The notes beneath the pieces are model-generated. The model was not told the origin of the DNA. It was given only the letters and a program-made list of their open reading frames with translations, and ran no database searches. 24,023 nucleotides of DNA from positions 1 to 24,023 of IMG/VR virus record IMGVR_UViG_3300048583_000504. The stretch is one strand, 5' to 3'. This DNA comes from a virus. Shown here in pieces: positions 1 to 20,906 of the stretch (its first letter is position 1; the number at the start of each line of letters is the position of its first letter). The translations under genes and the position numbers were made by a program.

Positions 1-3000
1 CCAGGAGCGATGTTGCCGGTAGCTTGGAGAGCGGCGTATGTCCGGTTCAGAGCGCCCAGCAGCCCGTCCACGTTATCGATGTCGTTGATCATCGCCTGCG
101 TGACGGTATCGCCTTCGGCAATATCTTGCAGGGCAAGAATACCGTCCCGCGTGATGCCGCTGTTAGGCTGCCGGCTGATATGAAAGGTCAGTGCTCGCGA
201 GGCTTCAAAGCGCTGGCTCTGGGTCAACCCCGCCATTCCACGCACCGTCACTGCAATACGAAACGCCTGGTTCCAGGTATGAATCGGAGAAGTGGTCTCC
301 GTGAGCTGAGCACGAACCAGATCCAGCCCAGACGAAGCGCCCGCCGGCAGCAAGCGCCGGCGGATGTCGCGGATCTCAGAATCTTCGAGCGGATTGAGAT
401 CGTTGCCGTGGTCGAGCAGCGCTTGCCGATCGGCAGCAGAAAGCTCCGGTACGAGCGCGAGCGCTCGATCGATCTCGTTCTGGGCTTCGGTGATGACAGC
501 TTCGTTGTCCTCGCCCATGATGTCGATGCGACTGCTTTCAAGCCGAGAGATCATTTCGTCGAAGCGATCGCCTACAGCGCGAGTGTTGTAGCCAAAGCTC
601 TGGTCGGCAGCAGCCAACGCAGCACGATCATCGTCGGTGATGTTGTCACCGCGAACCACGCCCCACAGTGCAGAACGTGCATCTACGTTGATTACACCGC
701 CAGTTTGACGCAGGCGAACGGCAATAGAATCCCACAGAGCGTCGCGCTCGTGGGTAGGCAGCGCAGAGTTGCTCAGGACATCGGCATTGCGCCGAGCGAT
801 TGCCCAGATTTTTGCCGCGGAAGCGTTCTCTGGAATCGGCTCAAGCTGCACGCCTTGCGGAGCCGGAGCCGCCGGATCAGAGGGCCCTGGCTCAAGCGTC
901 GTGTCCTGTCCCGTCTGACCGTAGCCGTACTGCGCATCCGCGGCAGCGAGCGCAGCACTTCTCGCGGCACTAACAGGATCTCCTGCTGCGATGTTGAACA
1001 GCGCAAGCCTTGCGTCTGACGAGCCAATCGGGCCGCGCAGCAGCGCAGCATACGAGTCGCCCATTGCTATGATACTTGCGTCCCCTTTCAGACCTGCAGC
1101 GGCAATACGATCCGCATTGCGCCGAGCAGCCGCCCATACCTCTGCGTCAGGGGCTCCCACCGGAGGCATAGGCTCCAGATTCAAATCAGGTGCGGCAGCT
1201 TCGTTGAGCAAACGATCGATTTCATTCTGCACTACAGAGCTGACTTGCGGGTTAAACGGCTGCGTTGACCAGATTTCTTCAAGCAGAGTCTCGCGCACCT
1301 CGGCGCTCAGCAGCTGCAGCCTTTGGATCAGCGCAGCGAGACTTTCAGCGTCGTAGTCAGCAGCCGGAGAGACAAGCTGACCAAGCAGCGACCGCAGCTC
1401 CGCGACCGTACCTTCGACGCTTGTGATTGGAGCGAGCGCAGGCGCAGCCACCGGAGCGGCGGGCGCAGGCGCAGGCGCAGGCGTCGCGGCCGGGGTCTCA
1501 TCGCGAATTTGCTGAGCGACCTCCGGGCTGTAGCTGACCACCTGGTCGTGACCGAACACGTTGCGCAGGGTGCGAGCGTTGTCGCCGGTCTGATCCATGC
1601 GGATGACCAGGCTGTCGTAGCCACTGTCGAGCAGGTACTGGCGCAGCGCCTGGGTTGCCGTGAGCACTTCCTGCTCCGACAAGCCCGAGAGATTCGGATA
1701 CGGCCAGTTCGCGCCTGTCATGGTCAGGTAGCGCCACTGCGCATCGGTCTCGATGACCAGCGGATCTCGCAGGCTCACGGTATGCGTGTTCACTGTGCCG
1801 TAGCCGGCGGCGTTCTCAGGCGTGTCAGCGAAGTAGGTGCCCTCGCCAGCGATCGGAACCTGCACGTCGGTGTAGATCACGTTCGGGTCACCGCCGCTGC
1901 CCCGCGGCAGGGTCAGCGTCACCGGCTGCGAAGTGCGCACTGCGGCAAGCGGGCTCGCAGAAACCACCGGAGCGGCGGGCGCAGGCGCAGGCGCAGGCGC
2001 AGGCGCAGGCGCAGCCACCGGAGCGGCGGGTGCAGGCGCAGCCACCGGAGCGGCGGGCGCAGGCGCAGCCACCGGAGCGGCGGGCGCAGCGACCGGAGCG
2101 GCGGGCGCCGTCTGCGACGCGAACTCCGCCGCGGCTCGCGTCAGGATATTCAGCACATTGTCCGGCGCCATCGTCGTGTTCGGCAGGTAAGCCAAAATGC
2201 GCGAGATCAGGCGCGAGAGCACCTCAAGAATGGTGCTGGTCGGCGCCGCGTTGAGTCGAGCGATCGCACGTTGCGCAGCAGCCGGCACGTTGGGGCCCAG
2301 CGGCGTGCGAGCGGCGAGCGCCAGGAACTCAGGGTTCATCAGCTCCGCCAGCATTTCCGAGCGCACGCCGCGGCCGTAATCGTACAGGCCGTACACCTGC
2401 CTGCCGTTGGCCACCGTCCTCATGCGCTGGTGCAGGAAGCGCATCAACGCCATCAGGTCACGCGATTCGGGCGTGGTCGAGGAAGCAACACGCGACAAGC
2501 CTTTCTCAGTCAGCGAGTGCATGACCTCGTGGTTCACCGTCGTCGCCGTGCCGAAGGCGCCGATCTTGATCGAGTGAGAGGCTGCGTCGTAATAGCCCAG
2601 CGTCCGAGAACCGCTCCTGGTTCCAGTTCCCAGACGTGCGCTGAACCGAAGCGCCGGGAAGGGCGTGCCGCTGGCACGGAACAGCTCCAGCAAGCCCGAC
2701 GCCGCCTGCTGGTTCACCACGCCGGCGGTCGGATCGCCGGCCATGACGCTCAGCACCTGCGGAATCGGTGCCGATGCCTTGACCGCTGGAATCCAGCGAG
2801 CCAGCGGGTTGTTGTGGCTCAAGCGCAGGCCTATGCCCAGCGTGCGCACGAAGTAGCCGCCGGGATCTTGCGTCGGATCGAGCACCGGCGGGCCACCGCG
2901 GTTGACGGTATCGGTGATTCGCTCGGGCGGGGCGTCCCTCAAAATGTCGCCTGCAGCAGACAGCGCCAGGAACGGATTGACCGTCATGCCGCGAGCCTGG

Positions 3001-4793
3001 GCAGCCAGCGAAGCACTGAGCCGCTCAGTAACCGGCGTCGCCGGGCGCTCCGGTGCAGTCGGCACCGGGATGTCGATCGGGTTGAGCTGGTCGATGGTGA
3101 CCGGGCCTTCGGGCACCGACACCGCCGTGAAGTTCTGGCCCTGGATGAAAGCGTCGGCCGTCGCGTTGGGCGTCTGGCCAGGCGCGTAGCCGGCGATGCC
3201 ATCGGCGCCGATCGAAACCTGGGCGCCGCCGATGTCGAGGATCGACGGCCCGGCCGGCGTCGCCGGTGTCGTGCTCGGCGCTTCGGGCGAGCCGGTCAGC
3301 GCGTCGATCGTTGGGAAGCGCGTCACGATCTGGCGTGCGCCGGCCAGGTTGTCGATCGTGACCGGCCCCGACGGCGTTGCCACCGAGAAGGTGCCGTCGG
3401 GGTTGCGGGTGATGCGAGCGTCGCCCGGTTCCTTGCCCAGCTCCGGCTCGCGGCGCCCGAGCGCTCGTCCCGCTACCGTGGTGACGGCCGTACCGCCGGT
3501 GCCGGCCAGGGCGCCGAGCACGAAGTCACCGCCGGCGCCGGCCAGGATGTTGTCCTCGCCCAGCGCGATGTTGCTGGAGATCGGCGCAGCGGCTTCGGTC
3601 ACGCCCTCGATGCCGGCCGTGCCGGCCAGGCCCGCCACGCGCCGCCCCAGGCCCCGCGGCGGCGCAGCGACGCCGGCCGCAGCGGCACCCACACGCTTTT
3701 CCAGGGCGCCGGGGATCGCCGCCAGGGCGGCACCGGCAGCGGTGCCCCAGGCCTGGGCCACCCGCGCCACATCGGAGGCCAGGGCCTGCCGCGCTGCCGC
3801 CTCGTTACCGCCGTTCTCGGCCAGGAGCTGAGCCCACTGCGCGTCCTGTTGCAAGTCGGCCAGGGGCGCGTCCATGATGCTCTGGAACGCCTGCGCCGCA
3901 GCCTCACCGCCAGTGGACACGCCTTCGATAGCCAGGCCTGCACGGGCACCGGCTTTAGCGCCCGTGAGCGCTGCGTTTACGGCCGACGCGCCGCGCCGCA
4001 TCGCGATGTAGCGAGCGCCGCCTGCGATACCGCCGCCGGCGACCAGGCTCGGCACCAGACCGCCGATCAGCTCGCCCACGGTGGCGATGCTGAGATTGCT
4101 GCCGGCGATCTTCGCTTCTCCCAGCAGCTGCCCGACGATGCTCAGCTCCGGGTCGGCCAGCAGCTGCTGGGTCTCGAACGCGATCTGCTTGGCGTTGTCG
4201 ATCTCGACCGCCGAGCGGCCAGCCGCCCGCTCCTGGCCCCGGAACCGGCTGGCCACGGCCACGTCACCGGCGGGATCGACGGCGGAGGCGATGCTGCCGA
4301 TAAAGCCGTCCAGGCCTCCGGCCAGGCCGCTGCCCAGGTCGGTCACCGCCTGGCCCCAGGTGCGGGTCGGCTCGACCGGCGGGGGCTGGGCTGTGCGCAG
4401 CTCCTGGTCGAGCGCGAAGATGTCAGCGTCGGGGTTGGCCTGCTTCGCCGCGGCCAGGTAGTTGTCCGCGAACTCGGCGTAGAGCCGGCTCTGCTCGCTG
4501 TAGGGCAGGGAATCAAAGCCCTGCAGCCCGCTCTTGATCTGCTCCCAGGACGGCATCGCGGCCAGCGCGGCCTGGCCCTGCGCGGTTTCGAGCTGCTTCT
4601 GCGTGGCCGTGCGCTGGGCGCCGACACGCCGGCCGGCCGCGCCGAAGGCGCCGCTCGCGGGCGGGAGCTTCACGGCCGCAGGCAGCGGGGGCGCTGTCTC
4701 GCGCAGCAACCGCAACGCCGGCGAGATCTCGTCGGCAAAATCCTGGATCTTGACGTTGCCCAGCGGCAGGTCGAACAGGTCTTTGCTCGCCAT
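1..4793 (-). CDS. Giant polyvalent ejection protein (>=1597 aa, 3' end beyond window) with HExxH peptidase-like and ADP-ribosyltransferase-like domains
   Basis: ATG 4793 overlaps the transglycosylase stop (TAATG); no Shine-Dalgarno site is evident, so coupling is likely. I translated the frame and found no stop to the left edge. Order: helical N-terminus; Gly/Ala-rich, weakly hydrophobic segments at ~240-300 and ~384-442 (ELIGGLVPSLVAGGGIAGGA; ILAGAGGDFVLGALAGTGG); a mixed region to ~640; an HExxH motif (NHEVMHSL, His755-Glu756-His759) with a later SEMLAEL (Glu813, Glu817) that could supply the third zinc ligand; a Pro/Ala linker (~895-945); an ART-like domain (~960-1095: LPRGSGG with Arg964, GEGTYFADTPENAAGYG, LRDPLVIETDAQW, GYDSLVIRM at 1058); a second Pro/Ala linker (~1101-1118); then helical repeats. 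Metallopeptidase and ART modules joined in one long chain are the hallmark of phage polyvalent proteins that act inside the host after injection. Enzyme activities are inferred only. Confidence 0.85.
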   Translation of the reverse strand, partial: MASKDLFDLPLGNVKIQDFADEISPALRLLRETAPPLPAAVKLPPASGAFGAAGRRVGAQRTATQKQLETAQGQAALAAMPSWEQIKSGLQGFDSLPYSEQSRLYAEFADNYLAAAKQANPDADIFALDQELRTAQPPPVEPTRTWGQAVTDLGSGLAGGLDGFIGSIASAVDPAGDVAVASRFRGQERAAGRSAVEIDNAKQIAFETQQLLADPELSIVGQLLGEAKIAGSNLSIATVGELIGGLVPSLVAGGGIAGGARYIAMRRGASAVNAALTGAKAGARAGLAIEGVSTGGEAAAQAFQSIMDAPLADLQQDAQWAQLLAENGGNEAAARQALASDVARVAQAWGTAAGAALAAIPGALEKRVGAAAAGVAAPPRGLGRRVAGLAGTAGIEGVTEAAAPISSNIALGEDNILAGAGGDFVLGALAGTGGTAVTTVAGRALGRREPELGKEPGDARITRNPDGTFSVATPSGPVTIDNLAGARQIVTRFPTIDALTGSPEAPSTTPATPAGPSILDIGGAQVSIGADGIAGYAPGQTPNATADAFIQGQNFTAVSVPEGPVTIDQLNPIDIPVPTAPERPATPVTERLSASLAAQARGMTVNPFLALSAAGDILRDAPPERITDTVNRGGPPVLDPTQDPGGYFVRTLGIGLRLSHNNPLARWIPAVKASAPIPQVLSVMAGDPTAGVVNQQAASGLLELFRASGTPFPALRFSARLGTGTRSGSRTLGYYDAASHSIKIGAFGTATTVNHEVMHSLTEKGLSRVASSTTPESRDLMALMRFLHQRMRTVANGRQVYGLYDYGRGVRSEMLAELMNPEFLALAARTPLGPNVPAAAQRAIARLNAAPTSTILEVLSRLISRILAYLPNTTMAPDNVLNILTRAAAEFASQTAPAAPVAAPAAPVAAPAPAAPVAAPAPAAPVAAPAPAPAPAPAPAAPVVSASPLAAVRTSQPVTLTLPRGSGGDPNVIYTDVQVPIAGEGTYFADTPENAAGYGTVNTHTVSLRDPLVIETDAQWRYLTMTGANWPYPNLSGLSEQEVLTATQALRQYLLDSGYDSLVIRMDQTGDNARTLRNVFGHDQVVSYSPEVAQQIRDETPAATPAPAPAPAAPVAAPALAPITSVEGTVAELRSLLGQLVSPAADYDAESLAALIQRLQLLSAEVRETLLEEIWSTQPFNPQVSSVVQNEIDRLLNEAAAPDLNLEPMPPVGAPDAEVWAAARRNADRIAAAGLKGDASIIAMGDSYAALLRGPIGSSDARLALFNIAAGDPVSAARSAALAAADAQYGYGQTGQDTTLEPGPSDPAAPAPQGVQLEPIPENASAAKIWAIARRNADVLSNSALPTHERDALWDSIAVRLRQTGGVINVDARSALWGVVRGDNITDDDRAALAAADQSFGYNTRAVGDRFDEMISRLESSRIDIMGEDNEAVITEAQNEIDRALALVPELSAADRQALLDHGNDLNPLEDSEIRDIRRRLLPAGASSGLDLVRAQLTETTSPIHTWNQAFRIAVTVRGMAGLTQSQRFEASRALTFHISRQPNSGITRDGILALQDIAEGDTVTQAMINDIDNVDGLLGALNRTYAALQATGNIAP
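735..1180 (-). repeat. Degenerate coding repeat, period ~333 bp (two copies)
   Basis: Two copies begin with LEPMPP (residue ~1206) and LEPIPE (residue ~1317), then VWAAARRNADRI / IWAIARRNADVL, and end with ALAAADAQYGYG / ALAAADQSFGYN. A DNA match (cgcattgcgccgagc / ggcattgcgccgagc) is visible near 1110 and 783. They encode helical repeats near the visible C-terminal part of the giant protein. A looser third copy may follow toward position 1. Confidence 0.7.
1440..1494 (-). repeat. Pro/Ala-coding repeat block (C-terminal side of the ART-like domain)
   Basis: Contains one copy of the same gcagccaccggagcggcggg unit (from 1444) followed by three gcaggc hexamers, identical to those of the larger block about 500 bp away. 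It codes for a short Pro/Ala linker, and together the two blocks bracket the ART-like domain. Confidence 0.85.
1958..2108 (-). repeat. Pro/Ala-coding repeat block (N-terminal side of the ART-like domain)
   Basis: On the plus strand five gcaggc hexamers run from 1981 to 2010, then a 27-bp unit starting gcagccaccggagcggcggg recurs at 2011, 2038 and 2065, with partial copies at both edges. On the coding strand this reads (Ala-Pro)n and PAAPVAA. It is an extended, probably flexible linker about 50 residues long. Confidence 0.9.
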
Positions 4794-5737
4794 TACAGCA
4801 GCGCCAGGTAGCGATTGATGCTCTTGTCGAGCGCCTCGGGCAGCGGCATGTCGGGCATGAAGTCCTCTCCGAAGAAGTCAGCGACGGCCCGCTCGCGCAT
4901 GTTGCCTACGTCGGTGCGCAGGCCGTCCGCCAGGGCCTGATCATCTTCCTCGGAGGGCTCAGGCAGGTCAATGGGGCCCAGCGCCTCGGGAGCCGCTGCC
5001 GGGCTCAGAGCCGCGATCAGGCTGTTGACCGCTCCTGGCGCGGTGGCCGGCACCGAAGGCGGAGCGATCAGCCCTGCCGCCGTCACCGCAGGGCTGACCC
5101 CTGGCGCGACCGGCGCTGCAGTGACCGCCGGCGACGCAGCAGGCGGCGTCGCCGCGGTCTGCGCCGGCGGGGTCATCGGCGGCAGCTGCTGCAGCCAGGA
5201 AGGCAGCGCCGTCATGTCGCGCAAGCTGGGCGCGGCGGCGGGCGGCGGGCCTCCTGCCAGTACGCCGGTCGTGTTGGCGTTGAGCTGATTCATCACGAAC
5301 TCCATCGAGCGTCTTTTCTGCGGGTAGGTACTCGACGGCAAGCTGGCCCAGGCGCCGCCGCTTCTCGCGATCGCGGTCTGCCAGTCAGCGTTCGCTACGG
5401 CGTCAAGCGCACCGGCGCGGCGCAGCAGCTCGATCGCTACCAGGTCTTGCGAGCGCGGGCTGAAATCCTTGAGGCCGAGCTTGCTCGACACGTCATCCCA
5501 GGTGCTCAGCGTGATCTGGTAGCGGCCAGCGGCGCCGGTCTTGTTTTTCTTGCCGTCGGTCTGGGTGAAGGCGTGCAGCACCCGCGGATGATCGTCCAGC
5601 TTGGCGATCTTGCCGCCGCCGAACGCCGTGCGGTAGCCGTGCGTCTGCGTCGCTTCGGCCGCAGAAATCATGTCGAGATACCGCCGCACGTTCGGGTTGT
5701 TGAGGTACGGCTCCACCCTTTCAAGACGAGAGGCCAT
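4793..5737 (-). CDS. GH104 (lambda R-like) lytic transglycosylase, virion-associated, 314 aa
   Basis: Cleaves the MurNAc-GlcNAc bond of peptidoglycan without water, forming anhydro-muramoyl ends. Residues 1-~160 match phage lambda R protein closely: Glu28 in MISAAEATQTHGY corresponds to the catalytic Glu19 of lambda R, and DHPRVL, TGAAGRYQIT (68-76), LGLKDFSPRSQDLVA (87-101) and WASLP (130-134) are all conserved family blocks. Residues ~165-250 are a Pro/Ala/Thr linker. The C-terminus (250-314) is an acidic helical segment ending in DKSINRYLALL. Lambda R is 158 aa, so the extra half is unusual for a soluble endolysin. Together with its place in the ejection cluster this suggests a virion enzyme that opens the cell wall for DNA entry. 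AAGGAG sits 11 bases upstream, and the start overlaps the previous stop (TGATG). The endolysin alternative is not excluded. Confidence 0.9.
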   Translation of the reverse strand: MASRLERVEPYLNNPNVRRYLDMISAAEATQTHGYRTAFGGGKIAKLDDHPRVLHAFTQTDGKKNKTGAAGRYQITLSTWDDVSSKLGLKDFSPRSQDLVAIELLRRAGALDAVANADWQTAIARSGGAWASLPSSTYPQKRRSMEFVMNQLNANTTGVLAGGPPPAAAPSLRDMTALPSWLQQLPPMTPPAQTAATPPAASPAVTAAPVAPGVSPAVTAAGLIAPPSVPATAPGAVNSLIAALSPAAAPEALGPIDLPEPSEEDDQALADGLRTDVGNMRERAVADFFGEDFMPDMPLPEALDKSINRYLALL

Positions 5738-9679: not shown

Positions 9680-11311
9680 TCAGCTCCCAAGCTCCTGCAT
9701 AGAGGTGGCCATCGAGAACAAACTCACCGATGCGGTGCCTTCCAGGGTGACACGCCAGCGGGTGCCCAGCAGCCAGTTCGGAAGCCGGAAGGCCCGCGGC
9801 GAGGCAACGTCACGCTGGAACCTTTGGCCGTGGTCGTTGACGATGGTAACACTCTCGCTTCCGTTCAGGTTTCGCAGGTGGGCGGCGCCGAAATTGATCG
9901 GGGTGTCGGTCACCACTTCCGGGGAAACCCAGCGATGCGGCCGCAGCTGGTCGCCCCTGTCCCACTCGACCACGCGGCCGTCCTGCAGGCGCAGGAACAG
10001 GGCGCCGTTGCGGGTCACCTGGGCCTGGCGCACGTCGGTGTCGGAGAGCGTGCTGTGCAGGTCGAGCTGCCAGCCGTTCTCAGGGCCGTCGGGGAGCTTG
10101 AGCACGAACGACCCGCCCTGGCCGAACACGAACAGGCTGCCGCCGTGGGCGATCGGCACGATGGTGTTGGGCGCCAGGCGCTGCCAGTCGTCCGGGGCGT
10201 ACAGCGGGTGCGTGAGCAGGGTCGGGCTGTTCCGGCCCGAGAGCATGACCAGGCCCTCGTGGCCTGGGTACACCGCGCCCTGGGGCGTGGCTGCCATGCG
10301 CCGGTTGCCGCCGCCGGCCATCGGCAGCACGACCGGCAACCGGATCGCCTCGCGACACCCGGCGTTTTTGCAGTCCACCGCGGCGACGATGACGTAAGGG
10401 GCTCCGTCGGTGGCGACGTACAGCAGGCCGTTGTTTTCGACGATGCCCAGGATGTTGTCGTCGAGATCCTGGTAGTAGGGCCACTGGTGGTAGCTGTTGT
10501 TCTCGCTGTAGTAGAGCCGCCGGCCGACGAAACCGACCAGGGAATTGATGCTCTCGATGTGGACGATGCCCTGCAGCGCCGCCGGCGGGGGCGGAGCCTG
10601 ATCTTCTTCCAGGGCGCTGATGAGCAGCTCGTTGAGCACCGTGTCGGTGAACGAGACCGCGCCGATCGGCACCTTGGCGACCAGCATCCAGGTCGTGTCG
10701 AATACGTTGCTGCTCTCTTTGCTGGTCGGCTGGTAGCCGGCGACCGAGCGGTAAATCAGGACGTGCGTGATGCCCCAGGACGGGTCAGGGAGCGGCCAGC
10801 CCGAGAGCAGCACGCTCTGGCCGTCCCGTGCCTGGAACGGCGCCGTGGCCTGGGACAGGGCGCCCCGCTCGCCGGCCGCGTTGACGTACTGGTAGGCGTA
10901 GCTGCGGCTCTCGGTGTCGCGGGGCGCCGTCGTGCCCAGGGCGCCGTACACGGCCGAGAGCGGCGTGTCGCCGCAGGGCACGCCCAGCCGGCGGGTCGTG
11001 GCCTGGCAGGCGGCATCGAACTCCATGACCACCGGGTAATCTTCCCAGCCGGTGATGAACAGCTTGCGGCAGTTGACCGGGCCCTGGGCCACGTCCGCGC
11101 AGCCCTCGAAATCGAGCCAGCAGCAGTCGTATTGGAACACCGTCCCGACCAGGGGCCCGACGGTGCGCTCCAGGCGCGGCTGGCGCCAGGACTCAAGCCG
11201 GCCGTGCCAGAGCTTGCAGTCCCGTGCCTCGCCGGCGTTGTCGGCGCCCAGCAGGTGCCCTGCCAGGCGCGGCGTCGAGCCGCCGAAGCGCTTGGCGATG
11301 TAGGCAGGCAT
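9680..11311 (-). CDS. Tail structural protein, probable nozzle/tubular component (543 aa)
   Basis: ATG 11311 has GAGGAG 7 bases upstream. The protein is almost entirely beta-rich, with recurrent short blade-like segments (LVGFVGRRLYYSENNSYHQW, NNGLLYVATDGAPYVIVAA, GAVYPGHEGLVMLSG, HGGSLFVFGQGGSFVLKL, NGALFLRLQDGRVVEWDRG). These suggest a beta-propeller, as found in podoviral nozzle or stabilisation proteins (P22 gp10-type, T7 gp12-type). The N-terminus has several cysteines, including CCWLDFEGC near residue 63. Gene order (after adaptors, before ejection proteins) fits a tail nozzle. I see no catalytic signature. The exact family is uncertain. Confidence 0.7.
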   Translation of the reverse strand: MPAYIAKRFGGSTPRLAGHLLGADNAGEARDCKLWHGRLESWRQPRLERTVGPLVGTVFQYDCCWLDFEGCADVAQGPVNCRKLFITGWEDYPVVMEFDAACQATTRRLGVPCGDTPLSAVYGALGTTAPRDTESRSYAYQYVNAAGERGALSQATAPFQARDGQSVLLSGWPLPDPSWGITHVLIYRSVAGYQPTSKESSNVFDTTWMLVAKVPIGAVSFTDTVLNELLISALEEDQAPPPPAALQGIVHIESINSLVGFVGRRLYYSENNSYHQWPYYQDLDDNILGIVENNGLLYVATDGAPYVIVAAVDCKNAGCREAIRLPVVLPMAGGGNRRMAATPQGAVYPGHEGLVMLSGRNSPTLLTHPLYAPDDWQRLAPNTIVPIAHGGSLFVFGQGGSFVLKLPDGPENGWQLDLHSTLSDTDVRQAQVTRNGALFLRLQDGRVVEWDRGDQLRPHRWVSPEVVTDTPINFGAAHLRNLNGSESVTIVNDHGQRFQRDVASPRAFRLPNWLLGTRWRVTLEGTASVSLFSMATSMQELGS

Positions 11312-12780: not shown

Positions 12781-13605
12781 TTACCCCCGGCGGAAAAACT
12801 GATCTTCGCGGGTCTGGCCGCGCCCAACGCTGAAAGTGGTGCCGGCACGCGCTTGCCACGCATTAGGCAGCATCAAGGCCTTGGTTTTGGCCAGGAGCAT
12901 CGCTCGTGCAAACATGTCGTAAGAGGGCAGCGAAGCCATCAACGCACGATCACGGAAGTGAACCGCGGCGGCGTACTGCAGCCGGGCGCCCATCGTGATG
13001 TCGGCGCGGAAGCGATCGTAAAGGAACGAGTCGTGCACGCACGCGCCCTCGGTGGGCGCCGACCAGACGAGCAGCCGCAGCACACCGTTGGACGGCGCGT
13101 TGTCGATCGAGAAGGCGTTGCGGGCCGTGTCCAGGCGCCACTGGCTTCCGCGCCAGGCGCCAGACAGGAGATCGCGCCCGGAGCACACACCGCAGTCGTC
13201 GTCGGTCATGCGCACGCCGATGACCCCGACGATCTGCTCCTCGGGGTAGGGAAAAACCGGGTAGGTCGTGGTGTCGGCTTGCAGCTCGATCACGATCTCA
13301 CGCTGCAGCACACGAGCGCCCTTGCAGAACTCGATCGCCGCCTGGCGAACGTAGTTGGCCGCGATCTCCTCGTCGGGGTCGTCGATACCAACGATGACCT
13401 CGGGGAGCCAGCGCTCCCAATCGTAGGTCGTCAAGGCCTCGGTGATAGGCAGCGGGTGATCGCACGCATCGCCGCAGCCGGCGCCGCCGGTCAAACACGG
13501 AATGGGGCTGGGCAGCCCGCACTCGGAAAAGGGACGGCCACCGTTCGACCAATCGACGATCAGGAAGTTCCGCGGGGAGTACCTGAGCTGGCGAGCGACG
13601 GCCAT
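12781..13605 (-). CDS. Probable head-tail adaptor (connector) protein, 274 aa
   Basis: Likely a connector protein sitting beneath the portal. The central segment (about residues 66-135) has the pattern seen in podoviral adaptors: an acidic helix (DDPDEEIAANYVRQAAIEFC), then strands that read like the I-I---G---Y-VFPYPEEQIVGVIGVR block, then a Trp-bearing strand-loop-strand region (WRLDTARNAFSIDNAPS), and a late Ala-rich helix (ITMGARLQYAAAVHFRDRAL). The N-terminus is cysteine-rich (CGLPSPIPCLTGGAGCGDAC). ATG 13605 has no clear Shine-Dalgarno sequence. The family is inferred from pattern and position and was not aligned. Confidence 0.7.
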   Translation of the reverse strand: MAVARQLRYSPRNFLIVDWSNGGRPFSECGLPSPIPCLTGGAGCGDACDHPLPITEALTTYDWERWLPEVIVGIDDPDEEIAANYVRQAAIEFCKGARVLQREIVIELQADTTTYPVFPYPEEQIVGVIGVRMTDDDCGVCSGRDLLSGAWRGSQWRLDTARNAFSIDNAPSNGVLRLLVWSAPTEGACVHDSFLYDRFRADITMGARLQYAAAVHFRDRALMASLPSYDMFARAMLLAKTKALMLPNAWQARAGTTFSVGRGQTREDQFFRRG

Positions 13606-14566: not shown

Positions 14567-15544
14567 TCAGACCTTGCTGATGGCGACAGCGACGCCATGC
14601 GGGTTGAAAACGTGGGTGTCCCAGACGAACTCACCGACCAGGTAGTCCTCCCACTTGCCTTCGTACCACTTGTTCGTGATGACATCGAAGGCGTGGAGAA
14701 CCTGCATCGGATCGATCAGGACGACGGGGGCCAGGACGCCGGCGGCGCCGAAATCCTGCGGAACGAGCCAGCGGGTCGCCATGAGGCGGAAACCGTACAT
14801 GTTGCCCATGTAGCCGGTCACCATCGCATTGCGATCGGAGCAGCAGGTGTTGAGTTCCTTGAGGTTCTTCAAGGCCCAACGCTGCAGCGCCAGCGGGATC
14901 AGGATCACCGGATCGGCGGTCTCGCCCAGGCTGGACATTTCACCCTCGCCGCACATCAGGCCGGCTTCCTGCGCCACCTGCATCAGCGACAGGATCATTT
15001 CCTCGAAGCCAGCCACCGAGTTGCCGTCCAGCGCGTCGGCGCCCTGGTTGCCCAGGTTGACGCTGTGGGTCAGCATACCGGCCGTGGTGCCCACGTTGTC
15101 CGGCGAGGCCGAGGCGATGATCTTCGGGATCGAGTACGCATCGACCAGCTTGGTGATGTTGCGGGAGATCTGGCGGCGGAGGTTCGCTTCCCAGCGCTCG
15201 AAGTTCGAGCACATCATCCGCTTGTCCTGGTTCGAGATCTTCCACTCGAACTTTTTGGACTGGCAGATGGTCAGCGAGTCGCTGCCGATGCCAGGCCCGG
15301 ACTGCGTTTCGGGATGCTCGTTGTTGTCGGTTTCCATGCCGAACAGGTCGAGATCCTGCTCCGTGCCGAAGATGACCTTCGAGCCGCAGAACAGTTCCTC
15401 GTCGCTCAGGAAGTTCGACTTGGCGATCTGCGGGGTGACCGAGCAGATCTGGTAGTTGTAAACGATCTTGGCGGCGATGCGCGGCGGGGCCCAGAGCGAG
15501 CCTTCGACGCTTTCGTAACCGACGGCGGCATTGTTGCGTGCCAT
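14567..15544 (-). CDS. Major capsid protein
   Basis: A 325-aa protein expected to build the icosahedral shell. Evidence is its position immediately after scaffold, a strong ribosome-binding site (AAGGAG 8 bases before ATG 15544), and a composition typical of HK97-fold coat proteins. The N-terminal arm is followed by a long helix region (RRQISRNITKLVDAYSIPKI) and a mixed domain ending in beta strands. There is no long N-terminal delta domain, consistent with a separate scaffold. Unusually for a coat protein it contains several cysteines, including a CC pair in LKELNTCCSDRN near residue 236. The HK97 fold is inferred from context, since I cannot align it here. Confidence 0.85.
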   Translation of the reverse strand: MARNNAAVGYESVEGSLWAPPRIAAKIVYNYQICSVTPQIAKSNFLSDEELFCGSKVIFGTEQDLDLFGMETDNNEHPETQSGPGIGSDSLTICQSKKFEWKISNQDKRMMCSNFERWEANLRRQISRNITKLVDAYSIPKIIASASPDNVGTTAGMLTHSVNLGNQGADALDGNSVAGFEEMILSLMQVAQEAGLMCGEGEMSSLGETADPVILIPLALQRWALKNLKELNTCCSDRNAMVTGYMGNMYGFRLMATRWLVPQDFGAAGVLAPVVLIDPMQVLHAFDVITNKWYEGKWEDYLVGEFVWDTHVFNPHGVAVAISKV

Positions 15545-15559
15545 GATGGTGCTCCTTGC

Positions 15560-16489
15560 TTAGTTGAGGGAGTCGAGAATTCGTTTTGCCTCGGCGCGAT
15601 CTTCTGCGCGAGGGGAACGCGCCAAACTTTTCGCCTTGTTGACCAATGCCGTGACTTCGGCAGCGGTCTTTTTGGCGTTTACATCGCGGCGCATGTGCGA
15701 ACCAAGAGCCGTGCGGGTATCCGGCGGCTGTCGATCCGAGTTCCGCTCACGGAACTTGGTAATGCGCTTCGCAACGATCTTGGCATATCGATCGACTTCC
15801 TCGGTGCTGGTAGCTTTGAGCAGCGAGGTGATCACACTGTCAACATCATTGTCATCTTCACGCGACCAGGCAATGAAATCCTGGTCGTAAGCCAGCTGCG
15901 CCAACTGGTGCAGCCCGCGGGTCGGATCGGACATCACCTTGGTACGGTGCTGCACGACCTTCTCCGCTTCGCGTTCGGCCAAAACCTGCATCGTCGCGGT
16001 CTTGACATCGACCTTCGGCGCCGCGGTTTTGGCGACGGCCGTGGCAACCTTGGTCATTGCCGCCAGCACAAGTGGGTCAATATCCTGAATTTCCTCCGGC
16101 GTCAAGATCTGGTCGAGCTGGAGCCCCGGTTTCGAGGCGTCGATCTGCGCCTGGAGCGCGTCGAGCTGGGCCCGGAGCTGGGCCTCGGTGTTGACCCGCG
16201 CCTGGCGCTCACCTTCCCACAGCTGCCGGTATTCTTCCTGGCCCTGCTGCGCCGGCGCAACCCGACCCTGCATCATCGCGAGCTGCCGGCGCAGGTCAGC
16301 GATCTCCTGCTGCTCCGCGGTCATGCGGTTGGGAGCGGGATCATCGTCCTGGTCATCGTCGTCCTGGTCGTCCTCGTCGTCGCGGGCGTTGGGCTGGGTC
16401 TGCTGCATCGGCGTGCCGTCGGGGTTGAGACCGGAGCGACGCAGCTTGTCGGCTTCACGCTGCTGGGCAAGTTCAAGGGCGGTAGGCAT
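15560..16489 (-). CDS. Capsid scaffolding protein
   Basis: This 309-aa protein probably directs prohead assembly and is then removed. It is predominantly helical and highly charged. Residues 37-50 are almost all Asp/Glu/Gln. A coiled-coil-like Gln/Leu/Arg region follows (about 56-120, with EIADLRRQLAMMQ and AQLRAQLDALQAQI). The C-terminal part is basic (RSPRAEDRAEAKRIL), as is usual for scaffolds that bind coat protein through a C-terminal basic helix. It sits directly upstream of the major capsid gene, the usual place for a scaffold. GGAG lies 8 bases before ATG 16489. I see no protease domain, so scaffold removal by exit rather than self-cleavage is plausible. Confidence 0.85.
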   Translation of the reverse strand: MPTALELAQQREADKLRRSGLNPDGTPMQQTQPNARDDEDDQDDDDQDDDPAPNRMTAEQQEIADLRRQLAMMQGRVAPAQQGQEEYRQLWEGERQARVNTEAQLRAQLDALQAQIDASKPGLQLDQILTPEEIQDIDPLVLAAMTKVATAVAKTAAPKVDVKTATMQVLAEREAEKVVQHRTKVMSDPTRGLHQLAQLAYDQDFIAWSREDDNDVDSVITSLLKATSTEEVDRYAKIVAKRITKFRERNSDRQPPDTRTALGSHMRRDVNAKKTAAEVTALVNKAKSLARSPRAEDRAEAKRILDSLN

Positions 16490-16522: not shown

Positions 16523-16747
16523 TCAGCTCTGAGCGGTCGTGGGAGCCTTGGTAATGTGGGTGATGAATTTCTCGACACCTTCGGCCAGGCCGGACTGACG
16601 AATCAGCACAGCAGGCTCGTTGGTGTGGTACAGCTGACGCAGTGCATCGGTTGCGTAGTCGCTGGCCAACTCTTTCAGCAGCCCGGCAAGGCGCTCATCC
16701 AACGCGAGCGCCTTGCGAACTTCGTACAGCCGCTGATCGCGAGTCAC
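16523..16747 (-). CDS. Hypothetical helical protein (74 aa) before scaffold
   Basis: Starts at GTG 16747, overlapping the previous stop (GTGA), and ends 33 bases before the scaffold gene. The composition is that of a soluble helical protein (DERLAGLLKELASDYATDALRQ), with no Cys, signal peptide or membrane segment. The function is unknown. Position suggests a minor head-assembly factor. The 3' end includes one arm of an imperfect hairpin (16515-16540) that lacks a T-tract. Confidence 0.7.
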   Translation of the reverse strand: MTRDQRLYEVRKALALDERLAGLLKELASDYATDALRQLYHTNEPAVLIRQSGLAEGVEKFITHITKAPTTAQS

Positions 16748-16902
16748 TTCTTACGACCGCACGACGCGCACGGGCGGGTCAGCGGGGCCGGACGATCACC
16801 CGACGGGCGCCGATCCGACGTGCTCGGGATCGAGCGCGGCGAGGGCGTCTTGCTGATGGTCTTGACCACCTTCGGGCCACTGGTGTTGAAATACTTGTTC
16901 AC
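16744..16902 (-). CDS. Small basic protein (52 aa) with C-terminal CxxC
   Basis: A short gene starting at GTG 16902, supported by an excellent AAGGAG 7 bases upstream. The product is rich in Ser, Pro, Arg and Lys, probably disordered, and ends in CASCGRKK, a lone CxxC that could bind metal or form a disulfide. The stop overlaps the next start as GTGA. No function is recognisable. The low complexity makes it a weaker coding call, but the ribosome-binding site and the exact fit between its neighbours favour a real gene. Confidence 0.65.
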   Translation of the reverse strand: MNKYFNTSGPKVVKTISKTPSPRSIPSTSDRRPSGDRPAPLTRPCASCGRKK

Positions 16903-16918
16903 GGTTTCACTCCTTCGG

Positions 16919-19900
16919 TTACGGGCACTCGACGCCCAGGCTGATGAAGATTTCATCGAGGGTGACGGTATCGTCTGCCACCGGTTCACCGACGCGCCGC
17001 ACACTCAGCGTGCCGTTGATGTTTCCGGCGACCGGGCCGGGGCCGTTGACCTCCCAACGGTAGATGCGCGTGGTGCTGGCCAAGAGCCAAACACCGCGAG
17101 CTGCACCAGAGGAAACCACCGGGCCGACTCCGCCGCCATCGAACCGCACCTCATAGTTGGCCGGGTCTTCGCCGGCCGGCATCCAGGTGAAGTTCGAGGA
17201 GCCCAACCCGCCAGGGGTTACCTGCATTTGACCGCTGGGCAGCATCGCAATCTGGTAGCTGCTCTGGCCGGTGGACGGGCTATCGACGATGCAGTCACCG
17301 CCCAGGCTGTTCGGCAGCGAGGGCAAGGCAATCTCGTCGTCGAGCACCGTCACGCAGGCCGGGCCCGAGAGCGAGAGCACCCGCGGGTTGGGCTGGATGG
17401 TGCCGCACAGCTCGCGGTCGCCGTCGGCTCCTGGCGTGTCTGGGTGGTTCACCGGCCAGTAAACCAGGTTCTCCCCGATGCCGAAGGTCACCAGCTCGTT
17501 CGGGAAGTTGTGCAGCGCCTGCTCGGAGCCGCTGTAAACCACCGTCAGGGTCAGCGGCGTACCGGTGACCGGAGCGTCGAGCAGAATCGACCACACGCTT
17601 GTGCCGCCTTCGGTCACCGGGGTGTTGACCTGGATGGTGGCCGAACCAGCGATGGATTCGTCGTCGATGACCGTGGCGCACACCGCCGCGGGGATGGACG
17701 CAAGCCGCACGTTCGGCAGCACCTGCAGGCAGAGCTGGCGATCGCCGTCCACGACGTTGTTGTCCAGGGTGGTCACGCAAAGCTGACCGGAGCTGGAGCC
17801 AATCGGGATGGTCACGCCAGGAGCCGGGTAGCTGTTGGCTGCCTGCTCGGCACCGCTGAGCACACCGATGATGTTCAGCGGAGCGCCGGCCACCGGGGTG
17901 TTGAGCGTCACCGTCCAGCAGAACTGCGAGCCTTCGTTGGCAGCCAGCGGCGTCACGACGACCGACACGACGTTGTGCGTCGAGGGGAAGTCGTTGTTGA
18001 GCACCGTGGCGCAGACCGGGGGCGGCGCGGCCGTGATGCGCGGCGTGAGCTGCACCGCCAGGCACAGGTCGCGGTCGGGGTTGATGACCGAGCTGTCGTT
18101 GGTCTGCACGCACAGCTGCACCGAGCTGAGCCCAGGCACAATCACGCCGGTCGGGGCTGCGTAGCCTTCGTTGACCTGCTCCTGGCCGCTGAGCACGCCC
18201 GTCACGGTGACGGGCGTACCTGTCACAGGTGCATCGAGCGTCACCGTCCAGCAGAAAGTGCTGCCTTCCGGGCCGCTGGTCGGAGCCACGGTGACCGAAG
18301 CCACGGTGTGCACGGAGTCGCCAACCGGAATGTCGTCGTTGAGCACCGTGACGCAGACCGGGGCTGGGGCGCTGATGATACGAGGCGCAGGCTGTACGGC
18401 CAGGCAGAGCTGACGGTCGGGGTCGATGACGGCGTTGGGGTTGGTGGTCACGCACATCTGCCCAGAGCTTGCGCCGACCGGGATGGTCACGCCTGGGAAC
18501 GGATAGTTTTCGTTGGCCTGCTCCTGGCCGCTGAGCACGCCGACCAAGGCCAACGGCGAGTTGACCACCGGCCCGTCGAGAGTGACCGTCCAGCAGAACT
18601 GCGACCCTTCGGCGGCAGCCAAGGGGGTCGCAACCACCGAGAGCACGTTGTGCAGCGAATCCACTGGCGGGGCCACGTCGTTGTCCAGGACGTTGATGCA
18701 GACCGGAGCCGGCGCAGCGGTCACCCGCGGCGACAGGAGCGCGTTGAGGCAGAGCTGCAGGGTCGGCTCGACCACGGCGTCGTCGAGCGTCTGGACGCAC
18801 ACCTGGCCCGACGTAGCGCCATCGGCCAGCACCAGCACCGGCGGGGTGTAGCCGTTGACGACCTGCTCGGAGCCCGACAGGTCGAAGTTGATGGTCAGCG
18901 CACCCTCGGCCACCGGGCCGTCCAGGGTCACCGTCCAGCACGCCTGCTCGCCCTCGGTGATGCTGGCCGCGGTCGGCACGACCGACACGATGGTATGCAC
19001 GGACGGCTGCGGGCCCACCACGTCGTTGTCGATGACGGTCGCGCAGACCGGCGGCAGCTCGTTGATGATGCGCAGGTTGGGCAGCAGCTTGAGGCACAGG
19101 GCGCGGGGGCCTCCGACCAGGGCGTCGTCCTCGGTCAGCACGCAAAGTTGACCGGAGTTTTGTCCAGGCTGGATGAGCGCAATCGGGTGGGGGTAGTTCT
19201 TGGTGTCCTGCTCCGCCCCGGACAGCAGGCCGGCGATGACCAGGGGCTGCCCGACCACAGGCGCGTCGAGCTGCACCGTCCAGCAAAACAGGGTGCCTTC
19301 CGGGCCAGGGTTCGGGGCGACGGTCAGACCGACGATGGAGTGCTGGGAGTTCTCGCAGAACACCGCGGTGGGCACCCAGCGCAGACGACCGCAATTGTTC
19401 ACTTCCTGGATCTGCAGCAGGTCGTTGACGCAGCGGCGCACGCCGGTGTCTTGCCAGACCTGCAGGTAGCCGGCGTTGGCCCAGCGGCGATCGCCGCACT
19501 GGTTGGTCTGCTCGACCTCGACCGTGAGGCCGTCCTCCAGGCAGCGCACGCTCGGCGTGTCCACCCAGAGCTGGGGCGGGCCTGGGGCCCAGCGGCGCTC
19601 GCCGCACTGGTTGGTCTGCTCGACCTCGGTAGCGACGCCGCCGGGCAGGCAGCGCAGGTTGGCGGTGTCCGTCCAGACCTGCCCGCCAGGAACCGATGTC
19701 CAGCGTGTGCGGCCGCACTCGTTGACCTCCTCGATCTCCAGGGTGGTCTGGTCGGCGGCGCAGCGGATGTTGCCGGTCGGGAGCCATTGCTGGTCGTCGT
19801 CGGCGTAGTAGATCGGCGGGCAGCCGCGCAGCACGTCGTCGAGATCCTGGGTGTGGGTCTCGTCCGTCCAGACCGTGACCAGGCCCAGGTCGAGCCCGGT

Positions 19901-20230
19901 GCCGTGGTACACCAGGCGCATCACCGTGCCCTGGGGGAAGTCGAGCACGACCACCGGATTCTGCGGGGTCAGGCGCACCGGGCGCTGGGTCAGGGCCTCG
20001 CACGCCGGGCATTGCAGTTCCTGCACTCCCTCGATCACGCCAGGGCCGGCTTCGCTGACGCGGCAGCCGCAGACGAATGACCGGGCGCCAGGGGCGACCT
20101 TCACGATCTCGAAGGTAATGAAGTCGCCCGGCTCCATGCCGACCGCCATGAAGGTGCGCTGCCGCGTGATCTCGAACGTGGCGGAGTCGAGATTGGCCGA
20201 AAGGGAGTTGAACAGGACGATCCGACTCAT
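16919..20230 (-). CDS. Calx-beta-like repeat virion protein (1103 aa), probable head fibre or decoration protein
   Basis: The start is taken at ATG 20230: it overlaps the previous stop (ATGA) and has GGAG 9 bases upstream. The frame is open further upstream, but only over the previous gene. Domains in order: residues 1-~142 resemble the 132-aa neighbour; ~142-290 hold four ~37-residue Trp/Cys repeats of the form W-DT---RC ... E-E-TNQCG-RRW; ~294-968 hold six ~112-residue Calx-beta-like repeats (EG--CWTV-LD-PV ... SG-EQ---NY--P ... G--SGQLCV-T ... LCL ... PVCATV-DND); ~970-1103 form a Gly-rich C-terminal domain. Calx-beta domains are calcium-binding beta-sandwiches found in adhesion proteins; calcium binding here is inferred from the conserved Glu and the Asp-rich junctions. 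The placement before scaffold and capsid suggests a head-attached appendage. A tail adhesin is the alternative. Confidence 0.85.
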   Translation of the reverse strand: MSRIVLFNSLSANLDSATFEITRQRTFMAVGMEPGDFITFEIVKVAPGARSFVCGCRVSEAGPGVIEGVQELQCPACEALTQRPVRLTPQNPVVVLDFPQGTVMRLVYHGTGLDLGLVTVWTDETHTQDLDDVLRGCPPIYYADDDQQWLPTGNIRCAADQTTLEIEEVNECGRTRWTSVPGGQVWTDTANLRCLPGGVATEVEQTNQCGERRWAPGPPQLWVDTPSVRCLEDGLTVEVEQTNQCGDRRWANAGYLQVWQDTGVRRCVNDLLQIQEVNNCGRLRWVPTAVFCENSQHSIVGLTVAPNPGPEGTLFCWTVQLDAPVVGQPLVIAGLLSGAEQDTKNYPHPIALIQPGQNSGQLCVLTEDDALVGGPRALCLKLLPNLRIINELPPVCATVIDNDVVGPQPSVHTIVSVVPTAASITEGEQACWTVTLDGPVAEGALTINFDLSGSEQVVNGYTPPVLVLADGATSGQVCVQTLDDAVVEPTLQLCLNALLSPRVTAAPAPVCINVLDNDVAPPVDSLHNVLSVVATPLAAAEGSQFCWTVTLDGPVVNSPLALVGVLSGQEQANENYPFPGVTIPVGASSGQMCVTTNPNAVIDPDRQLCLAVQPAPRIISAPAPVCVTVLNDDIPVGDSVHTVASVTVAPTSGPEGSTFCWTVTLDAPVTGTPVTVTGVLSGQEQVNEGYAAPTGVIVPGLSSVQLCVQTNDSSVINPDRDLCLAVQLTPRITAAPPPVCATVLNNDFPSTHNVVSVVVTPLAANEGSQFCWTVTLNTPVAGAPLNIIGVLSGAEQAANSYPAPGVTIPIGSSSGQLCVTTLDNNVVDGDRQLCLQVLPNVRLASIPAAVCATVIDDESIAGSATIQVNTPVTEGGTSVWSILLDAPVTGTPLTLTVVYSGSEQALHNFPNELVTFGIGENLVYWPVNHPDTPGADGDRELCGTIQPNPRVLSLSGPACVTVLDDEIALPSLPNSLGGDCIVDSPSTGQSSYQIAMLPSGQMQVTPGGLGSSNFTWMPAGEDPANYEVRFDGGGVGPVVSSGAARGVWLLASTTRIYRWEVNGPGPVAGNINGTLSVRRVGEPVADDTVTLDEIFISLGVECP
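17325..19350 (-). repeat. Six tandem Calx-beta-like coding repeats, period ~335-347 bp
   Basis: Repeat starts lie near 19349, 19002, 18657, 18318, 17983 and 17642. DNA similarity is visible: a string containing accgtccagca recurs near 17910, 18245, 18580, 18925 and 19277, where it codes for the CWTV strand. Copies 1-5 each have four cysteines; copy 6 (about 17325-17642) keeps only the last two. Such repeats are prone to copy-number change by recombination and to assembly collapse. Confidence 0.8.
19360..19812 (-). repeat. Four short Trp/Cys repeats (~37 aa) in the Calx-beta protein
   Basis: Four in-frame copies encode the pattern W-DT---RC-----EVEQTNQCG-RRW. The two middle copies are the most alike at DNA level: the string coding for EVEQTNQCG recurs near 19495-19525 and 19607-19635. 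Each copy carries two Cys and two Trp, suggesting a small disulfide-stabilised module. I do not recognise the family. Confidence 0.75.
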
Positions 20231-20625
20231 GGCGTGACTCCGCAGGGGCAACCGCGCAAGCGATCGTTGACGTTCTGGGTGGTGGTTTCCTGGAACATGA
20301 CCGACTGCGTGCTCGGGGTGTCGGTGTCGAGCTTGGCTCGCATCGTGACGCCCTGGGGCGCATCGAGCACGACGAACGGGTTGTCGCGGGTCAGCACGAC
20401 GGGGGTGCCGCAGCACAGCAGCTGCACTTCGTCGAGCACCGACGGCAACACGACCTGGCCAGGAGGACAGGTGCAGGGGTCACGCGCCGGCGTGGTCTGC
20501 AGCACCAGCCAGAGCGTCACTTCGTCGAGAGGCTCCAGGCCCAGGGCGACGATCGTGATCTGGTGGCGGATCTCGAAGGTCGGAGAAACACCATCGAGCG
20601 TATCGCGATTGATGATCTGTCTCAC
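20227..20625 (-). CDS. Hypothetical virion protein (132 aa), stand-alone copy of the next gene's N-terminal domain
   Basis: Starts at a GTG that overlaps the previous stop (GTGA) and has GGAG 8 bases upstream. The protein is beta-rich and aligns end to end with the first ~140 residues of the following 1103-aa protein. Both have FEI-R-Q near the N-terminus, a G-EP-D- step, a cysteine pair in the middle, LT--NP-VVLD-PQG--MR, and a C-terminal D-LRGCP. This implies a tandem gene duplication with one copy fused to a repeat array. The function is unknown. The position between portal and scaffold genes and the pairing with a large repeat protein suggest a head-surface or vertex protein or a partner of the larger protein. 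It contains a CC doublet (LLCCG). Confidence 0.8.
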   Translation of the reverse strand: MRQIINRDTLDGVSPTFEIRHQITIVALGLEPLDEVTLWLVLQTTPARDPCTCPPGQVVLPSVLDEVQLLCCGTPVVLTRDNPFVVLDAPQGVTMRAKLDTDTPSTQSVMFQETTTQNVNDRLRGCPCGVTP

Positions 20626-20906
20626 GAGGGGAACTCCGCTACGATGTTGTCCATCAGCCGTTGGTACTTGGTGATGTTCTGGAACGGCAGGTCAAGCCGA
20701 AGCGGCTCGTGCCAGAACACAACCCGCACCCCGTTCACGAAACCACCTTGCTGCACGAAAATGATGCGCGTCTGGCCGTTGGCGCCGGTCAGGCGCAGCT
20801 TGGCCGAGCCGCCGTCGAAGCCTTCCACCACGCCCCAGGCCTTGAAGCCGGTGTGGTACAGCGGGTCGTCGAGCAGGACGTGACGGCCGGCGATCATAAT
20901 GCTCAT
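20622..20906 (-). CDS. Hypothetical protein (94 aa) after portal
   Basis: A small protein of unknown function, translationally coupled to portal through an ATGA overlap. No good Shine-Dalgarno sequence lies upstream of 20906, which fits re-initiation. An internal ATG at codon 4 (20897) is an alternative start. The sequence looks like a compact beta-rich fold with alternating hydrophobic residues (GSAKLRLTGANGQTRIIFVQ) and a C-terminal helix. It has no signal peptide or membrane segment. Its position among head genes suggests a small head or connector component, but nothing in the sequence proves this. Confidence 0.7.
   Translation of the reverse strand: MSIMIAGRHVLLDDPLYHTGFKAWGVVEGFDGGSAKLRLTGANGQTRIIFVQQGGFVNGVRVVFWHEPLRLDLPFQNITKYQRLMDNIVAEFPS

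Follow-up and report, generated by a model that had tools for sequence, protein, structure and literature searches.

A giant frame at the end of a late operon

The left end of this phage contig is occupied by one very long reading frame, which raises two questions: is it a gene, and if so, what kind of protein does it encode and what would that protein do during infection? The stretch of DNA analysed here (the window) is an entire virus record of 24,023 bases, and the product of the frame, P0001, is therefore truncated at its C-terminal side. The frame (3–4793, minus strand) begins with an ATG at position 4793 and is free of stops up to the left contig end, so that 1,597 codons are present. 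Among 500 sequences simulated with a first-order Markov model of bases 1–4811, the longest stop-free run was 642 codons; given this maximum and the homologues of P0001 described below, chance does not explain a frame of this length. The ATG lies on the stop codon of the gene directly upstream, forming a TAATG overlap. That gene (4793–5737, minus) encodes a lysozyme or lytic transglycosylase (phrog_17230, E = 1.4e-54; phrog_90, endolysin; also tblastn) and has homologues in three related records, G003, G005 and G007. A first-pass annotation had described an uninterrupted minus-strand frame of at least 1,597 codons starting right after a lytic transglycosylase gene, and both statements hold.

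Overlapping the giant frame is a plus-strand frame of 1,162 codons (1323–4811), which invites the reading that the long minus-strand frame is a high-GC artefact and the true gene lies on the plus strand. The first-pass annotation had called the opposite-strand reading much longer-looking, but the minus-strand frame is in fact the longer one. Its GC contents at the three codon positions (0.71/0.54/0.77) are highest at the third, a pattern common to five of the six other window frames checked (the exception being 17295–20363) and in line with the neighbouring genes. P0001 has a homologue at 31% identity over residues 2–942, and no equally long antisense frame covers the homologous giants: the longest ones listed there measure 840, 211, 237 and 318 aa. 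The homologues of the minus-strand protein already refute a plus-strand gene; we give that reading practically no chance and do not consider 1323–4811 a gene.

The giant gene is the end of a late operon that starts at the gene for the terminase large subunit (TerL) and runs on a single strand. TerL (22945–24021, minus; phrog_2472, phrog_2) is open at the right end of the window. It is followed by a portal or head–tail adaptor gene (20903–22954, minus; phrog_332, E = 2e-13), 59–85% identical in six related records, by a probable scaffold gene (15560–16489, minus; phrog_4866, E = 6e-4) and by a probable major capsid gene (14567–15544, minus). The last assignment draws on position and conservation: the candidate capsid protein is 65–94% identical in five related records and matches nothing in PHROG or Pfam. 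Further downstream lies a homologue of an internal virion protein (9680–11311, minus; phrog_511, E = 4.6e-76), with matches in 155 phage records. The giant gene shares its strand with the genes for TerL, the portal, the scaffold, the internal virion protein and the lysozyme, which places it among late virion genes.

One further contig, L097, is 100% identical to the window at the protein level from TerL to part of 12781–13605, including the portal and the candidate capsid, and ends short of the giant gene. In the region 16556–20416, between portal and scaffold, a long minus-strand frame (1,022 aa, counted from an ATG) overlaps a long plus-strand frame (1,174 aa). Pfam assigned nothing to the former, whose PHROG match is weak (0.017) and whose distribution of GC over the codon positions is unusual; relatives other than L097 match the region only piecewise.

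A predicted zincin-like metallopeptidase

A Pfam scan of the whole of P0001 assigned no family, and its domains were located with profiles and structural models. Residues of about 641–926 (2016–2873, minus) form a predicted zincin-like metallopeptidase (MPTase) domain, whose ends are approximate because those of the aligned rows were chosen by hand. P0001 reaches 205 bits against a profile from which the window row was left out, and the domain aligns with those of relatives at 17–38% identity. The HExxH motif, NHEVMHSLTEKG (H755-E756-x-x-H759; 2517–2531, minus), is invariant in all nine rows of alignment A6 (two of them from L133); a threonine and the glutamates E813 and E817 are among the other residues conserved in nine of nine. 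P0001 therefore has the features that mark a polyvalent MPTase, an HExxH helix and a glutamate in the helix that follows (H755, E756, H759, E813 and E817). In the structural model (pLDDT 77, pTM 0.71), a helix and three strands precede the HExxH helix, after which more helices follow; up to the HExxH helix, this is the order in which the polyvalent MPTase has been described (Iyer et al., PMC5512222).

A Foldseek search of the model against the PDB gave no match at E = 0.001 or better. In a VIA comparison with 50 rows, the first 29 carry zinc metallopeptidase titles, at Z scores of 3.7 to 6.7; values below 8, which apply to both the peptidase and the ART model, can reflect a common arrangement. 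Most of these rows are anthrax lethal factor, a match of fold only, followed by PPEP-3 at Z = 4.7. The peptidase core is joined to the next domain by a Pro/Ala-rich linker (residues 885–954; 1932–2141, minus; 30-residue windows with at least 70% Pro plus Ala), which overlaps the end of the peptidase profile. The likeness of the model to PPEP-3, a Pro-Pro endopeptidase, next to such a linker may hint at a connection, which we treat as speculation. When P0001, the ART alignment A8 and the relatives' protein P0008 were searched against PDB sequences, no convincing match emerged; a fatty acid synthase hit of P0001 (E = 4e-4) falls on residues 839–951, mostly an Ala/Pro-rich stretch, and was rejected.

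Taken at the level of sequence and model, the assignment of a peptidase is supported by the profile that leaves out the window, the invariant motif and the zincin-like predicted fold, in agreement with the metallopeptidase-like domain initially proposed.

An ART-like domain with a different residue set

The linker leads into an ART-like domain (residues of about 953–1093; 1515–1937, minus). Pfam ART-PolyVal (PF18760) ranked first for this segment, at E = 0.043 and 0.021, and its 15–16 bits do not reach the gathering cut-off of 31.2. A profile of the relatives' canonical ART-PolyVal domains did not find P0001. A pattern search of viral contigs with the last motif of the domain returned nine stretches: two of them, in L144 and L141, encode a homologous domain in a long frame (phmmer E = 2.5e-15 and 2e-11, respectively, in a two-sequence database), and seven do not. 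The ART segments of L141 and L144 found no Pfam family even at E = 10. The L144 frame (L144:2–7663, minus) is 2,554 aa long and cut by the locus edge; its ART, of the window type, is located close to the start, and the available part is free of HExxH motifs.

The fold of the model points the same way as the homologues. Against BFVD, the best match is a 'Large polyvalent protein associated domain-containing protein' (E = 4.9e-10), and ten models score at E = 0.001 or better, including two PolyVal ADP-ribosyltransferases and one ART-PolyVal-like protein; Foldseek found nothing at that threshold in the PDB. VIA rows for the model are nearly all what we take to be ART-fold chains (MbcT, NatT, the diphtheria-toxin type and PARPs), at Z below 8. 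The top VIA match, chain 9k3a_B (Z = 6.5 over 118 residues, 3.7 Å), comes from the cyanophage A4 pre-ejectosome; it is known by its entry title and aligned over the wide range 467–1600. The model can be said to adopt an ART fold, and the ART-like domain that the first-pass annotation had named is borne out by two sequence homologues and by fold matches, with a Pfam score below the cut-off. Structure prediction by segments had been set as a check on that annotation, and both the peptidase and the ART model came out with the expected fold.

In the three-row alignment A8, R964, Y987 and Q1084 are among the invariant residues. The residue set given for polyvalent ARTs is His, Tyr and Asp (H-Y-D; Iyer et al., PMC5512222). 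The pattern of a His on strand 1, a Tyr on strand 2 and an Asp on strand 5 was not found in P0001, where R964, Y987 and Q1084 stand instead, on strands assigned from a model with a pLDDT of 71 built from three rows. The His varies among the relatives' ARTs as well: it is an Arg in L129 and is missing from one L133 copy. Because the R, Y, Q set is unlike the H-Y-D set, ART activity is uncertain.

The substitution would suit an ART that has degenerated and lost its activity but is retained for binding or for structure, with a peptidase serving assembly only; for N4, the region that contains the peptidase is required for encapsidation (PMC5512222). However, the R, Y and Q positions are invariant in three divergent sequences, and ART-PolyVal domains follow the peptidase in G005 and L133. 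We consider an inactive ART combined with a purely assembly-related peptidase unlikely.

The N-terminal module and the question of a virion polymerase

Upstream of the peptidase, residues of about 3–450 (3444–4787, minus) form an N-terminal module with hydrophobic Gly/Ala-rich segments. A profile of three relatives, built without the window row, matches it at 276 bits, after a composition correction of 37.5 bits. The hydrophobic segments (Kyte–Doolittle of at least 1.3) lie at about residues 229–260 and 424–442 and are similarly placed in the relatives' proteins P0005, P0007 and P0008; from their sequence, they would fit a membrane role. At the other end of the available protein, residues 1243–1402 (588–1067, minus) contain a weak internal repeat (1243–1291 versus 1352–1402; 45% over 51 aa, E = 2e-4). 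All sequence features initially noted, the HExxH, the ART-like block, the hydrophobic segments and the repeat, can thus be placed on P0001, the repeat being weak.

Residues 237–444 also match phrog_2206, 'virion RNA polymerase' (E = 2e-10), the only polymerase signal in the 1,597 aa. N4-like virion RNA polymerases resemble P0001 in having an MPTase, sometimes an ART, and an N-terminal region similar enough to give this match; Roseovarius Plymouth podovirus 1 combines peptidase, ART and N4 RNA polymerase in one protein (Iyer et al., PMC5512222), and a Roseobacter phage virion RNA polymerase is among the weak fold matches of the ART model (E = 0.017). P0001 could therefore be thought of as the N-terminal part of such a polymerase. 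Yet, of three reference giants scanned, that of Achromobacter phage CF418P1 is matched by phrog_2206 at its N-terminus in the same way, although Pfam finds in it only LPD38, LPD3 and a pyrophosphatase; that of Vibrio phage 1.205.O matches a different part of the phrog_2206 family, and that of K249 has no match. In contrast to N4-like polymerases, the G003 giant and the two pieces of the G005 giant contain no polymerase by Pfam, and the about 5–50 residues between the peptidase match and the C-terminal module of the G007 giant leave no room for one there. The polymerase reading was set aside on account of the CF418P1 match, and we regard it as very unlikely.

A recurring frame with a variable slot

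Relatives of the window were sought through its late genes. A TerL scan returned six loci at 61–100% identity, and a TerL alignment added one more (L110, 62%). Searching the seven related records with P0001 located the giant in three, G003, G005 and G007, the only ones longer than 22 kb. Of the 15 minus-strand window frames that were compared, these records contain homologues of 14, 13 and 14, respectively. The complete giants measure 2,661 aa in G003 and 1,938 aa in G007; that of G005 is in two pieces, split by contig ends. Pfam detects LPD38 close to the C-terminal end of the G003 giant (E = 5e-22) and of the G005 giant (E = 1.7e-15), the latter also containing ART-PolyVal (E = 1.8e-14), and the C-terminal part of the G007 giant aligns with that of G003 at 43%.

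Three neighbourhood features were seen in these records. A gene for an SNF2-type helicase (L107:6470–7897) lies tail to tail with the giant of G005, and a ThyX thymidylate synthase gene (L105:1204–2109) lies on the other strand beyond the end of the G003 giant. Where the G005 contigs end inside the giant, there are long Pro/Thr/Ala repeats (L109:17257–19188 and L107:2–6478).

A tblastn search of public phages with the whole of P0001 and its segments gave no match, and scanning viral contigs with single sequences (the giant, the peptidase–ART segment or the internal virion protein) yielded no confirmed relative. An alignment of the internal virion protein found at least 557 relatives; in the best 80 loci, which are at most 29% identical and whose frames are often cut by the 10-kb flank, there was no clear match to P0001 except in L012, where an N-terminal stretch matches at E = 8.6e-5 (Atu_ph08, 0.0035). 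The TerL alignment located four distant loci in genome contigs, and P0005 and P0001 were unmatched in those genomes.

The C-terminal module shared by the G003, G005 and G007 giants (C module, 998 aa) found 11 loci, eight of them new; together with the window, this gives 12 giants. The peptidase subtype of the window occurs in eight of the 12 (the window, L125, L126, L128, L130, L132, L133, twice, and L135) and the N-terminal profile in seven (the window, L125, L126, L127, L128, L129 and, through the other piece, P0007, the phage of L135). Between the end of the peptidase profile and the C module, L125 has about 711 aa, L126 509, L130 962, L132 1,065 and L135 496, lengths that are approximate since the row ends of the peptidase alignment were chosen by hand. 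In G007 (L128) this slot is nearly empty: about 5 residues by profile and by one pairwise match, or 41–50 by other pairwise matches. The L133 giant (L133:4850–12823) is ordered peptidase, ART, peptidase, ART, C module.

For the eight new giants, a portion of the sequence preceding the C module was searched with Pfam. This identified ART-PolyVal in L133 and L129, a Zeta toxin domain and MuF_C in L131, MuF_C together with PBECR RNase-like domains in L134, and ddrB-ParB and LPDs in L129; nothing exceeded the cut-off in L126, L127, L130 and L132. As L127, L129, L131 and L134 lack the peptidase subtype of the window, their contents describe the C-module family and not the same slot. Among the giants that do have this peptidase, those of the window, G005 and L133 carry an ART behind it, and the slots of L125, L126, L130 and L132 contain no Pfam-named domain. 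By these sequence comparisons, an N-terminal module, a peptidase and a C module appear to form a recurring frame with a variable slot after the peptidase. Because the relatives differ there, this slot is probably an exchangeable effector position.

Giant genes in reference phages

We examined 11 hand-picked phages out of the 155 records that match the internal virion protein. An annotated gene for more than 1,900 aa is present in ten of them, downstream on the same strand in eight and on the opposite strand in two (Atu_ph08 and PBC5); Microcystis phage Mwe-JY25 is without a giant gene. A cultivable phage of Pseudomonas fluorescens SBW25, Skulduggery, also has a giant in this place, though a more distant one. 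In five of these giants, Pfam found LPD38 (three), LPD39 (two) and a pyrophosphatase, transglycosylase, methylase or helicase (four). When 12 giant frames of reference phages were searched with the N, peptidase and C profiles, the only matches were those of the C profile in two Vibrio phages; the full peptidase profile matched none, though several have an HExxH of their own.

Among the closest known parallels are the 'DarB-like' giants of Bcep22-like podoviruses, JC1 gp69 and BcepIL02 gp70 (4,515 and 4,667 aa), which like P0001 are encoded after a phrog_511 homologue and near the end of the late operon. The BcepIL02 giant has LPD38 near its C-terminus and matches to a transglycosylase, a methylase and a helicase, and none to our N, peptidase or C profiles. 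In Burkholderia phage JC1, gp69 is virion-associated: 51 of its unique peptides were reported from purified virions (PMC9144972).

Discussion

We conclude that P0001 very probably represents the N-terminal portion of a phage polyvalent protein that is synthesized late. It is probably packaged by a short-tailed (podovirus-type) phage and would be ejected together with the DNA. Polyvalent proteins are a phage class described in 2017 (Iyer et al., PMC5512222) and predicted to be injected into the host. P0001 shares with them a zincin-like MPTase and an ART combined in one very large protein of the late virion region, both domains being recognizable in a single frame by sequence and by model; it differs in an ART that remains below the ART-PolyVal cut-off and in which R, Y and Q replace H-Y-D. 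The relatives G003 and G005 carry LPD38, a domain of polyvalent proteins, and the homologous part of P0001 would lie beyond the contig end. The class proposed in the first-pass annotation is thus upheld by the domain pair, the late-operon position and the LPD38 of the relatives. Published work already covers the class, the pairing of the two domains and the presence of similar proteins in virions; the recurring frame with its variable slot, as read from sequence, is what the present analysis adds. Our literature search, which was not aimed specifically at this family, found no paper on it and no virion or infection data for this phage.

A life cycle can be proposed in steps of different strength. 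Judged from the relatives, the missing C-terminal part of P0001 is very probably an LPD38-type module. By analogy with JC1 gp69, the giant would very probably be found in the virion, and it would probably enter the cell with the DNA. The predicted peptidase, with its conserved motif, is likely to be active. Whether it would cut the giant itself and free the cargo domains, rather than cut a host protein, is close to an even choice, tilting slightly against self-cleavage. Somewhat better placed is the proposal that the predicted ART may modify a host target early in infection. Roles in packaging and ejection, and for peptidase and ART, have been proposed for polyvalent proteins by Iyer et al., who treat the role of the peptidase as an open question (PMC5512222).

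A more specific scheme, which we put forward as speculative and rather improbable in its entirety, is a frame for exchangeable cargo: the N, peptidase and C modules would be constant and the slot swapped, the peptidase would cut at the Pro/Ala linker and so release the cargo in the infected cell, and the window would have as its cargo an ART from a distinct subfamily that works with an Arg-Tyr-Gln set. The family offers a natural comparison, with an almost empty slot in G007, different cargo in others and the peptidase–ART unit present twice in L133. Owing to this natural variation of the slot, self-processing and cargo release would be testable with small constructs.
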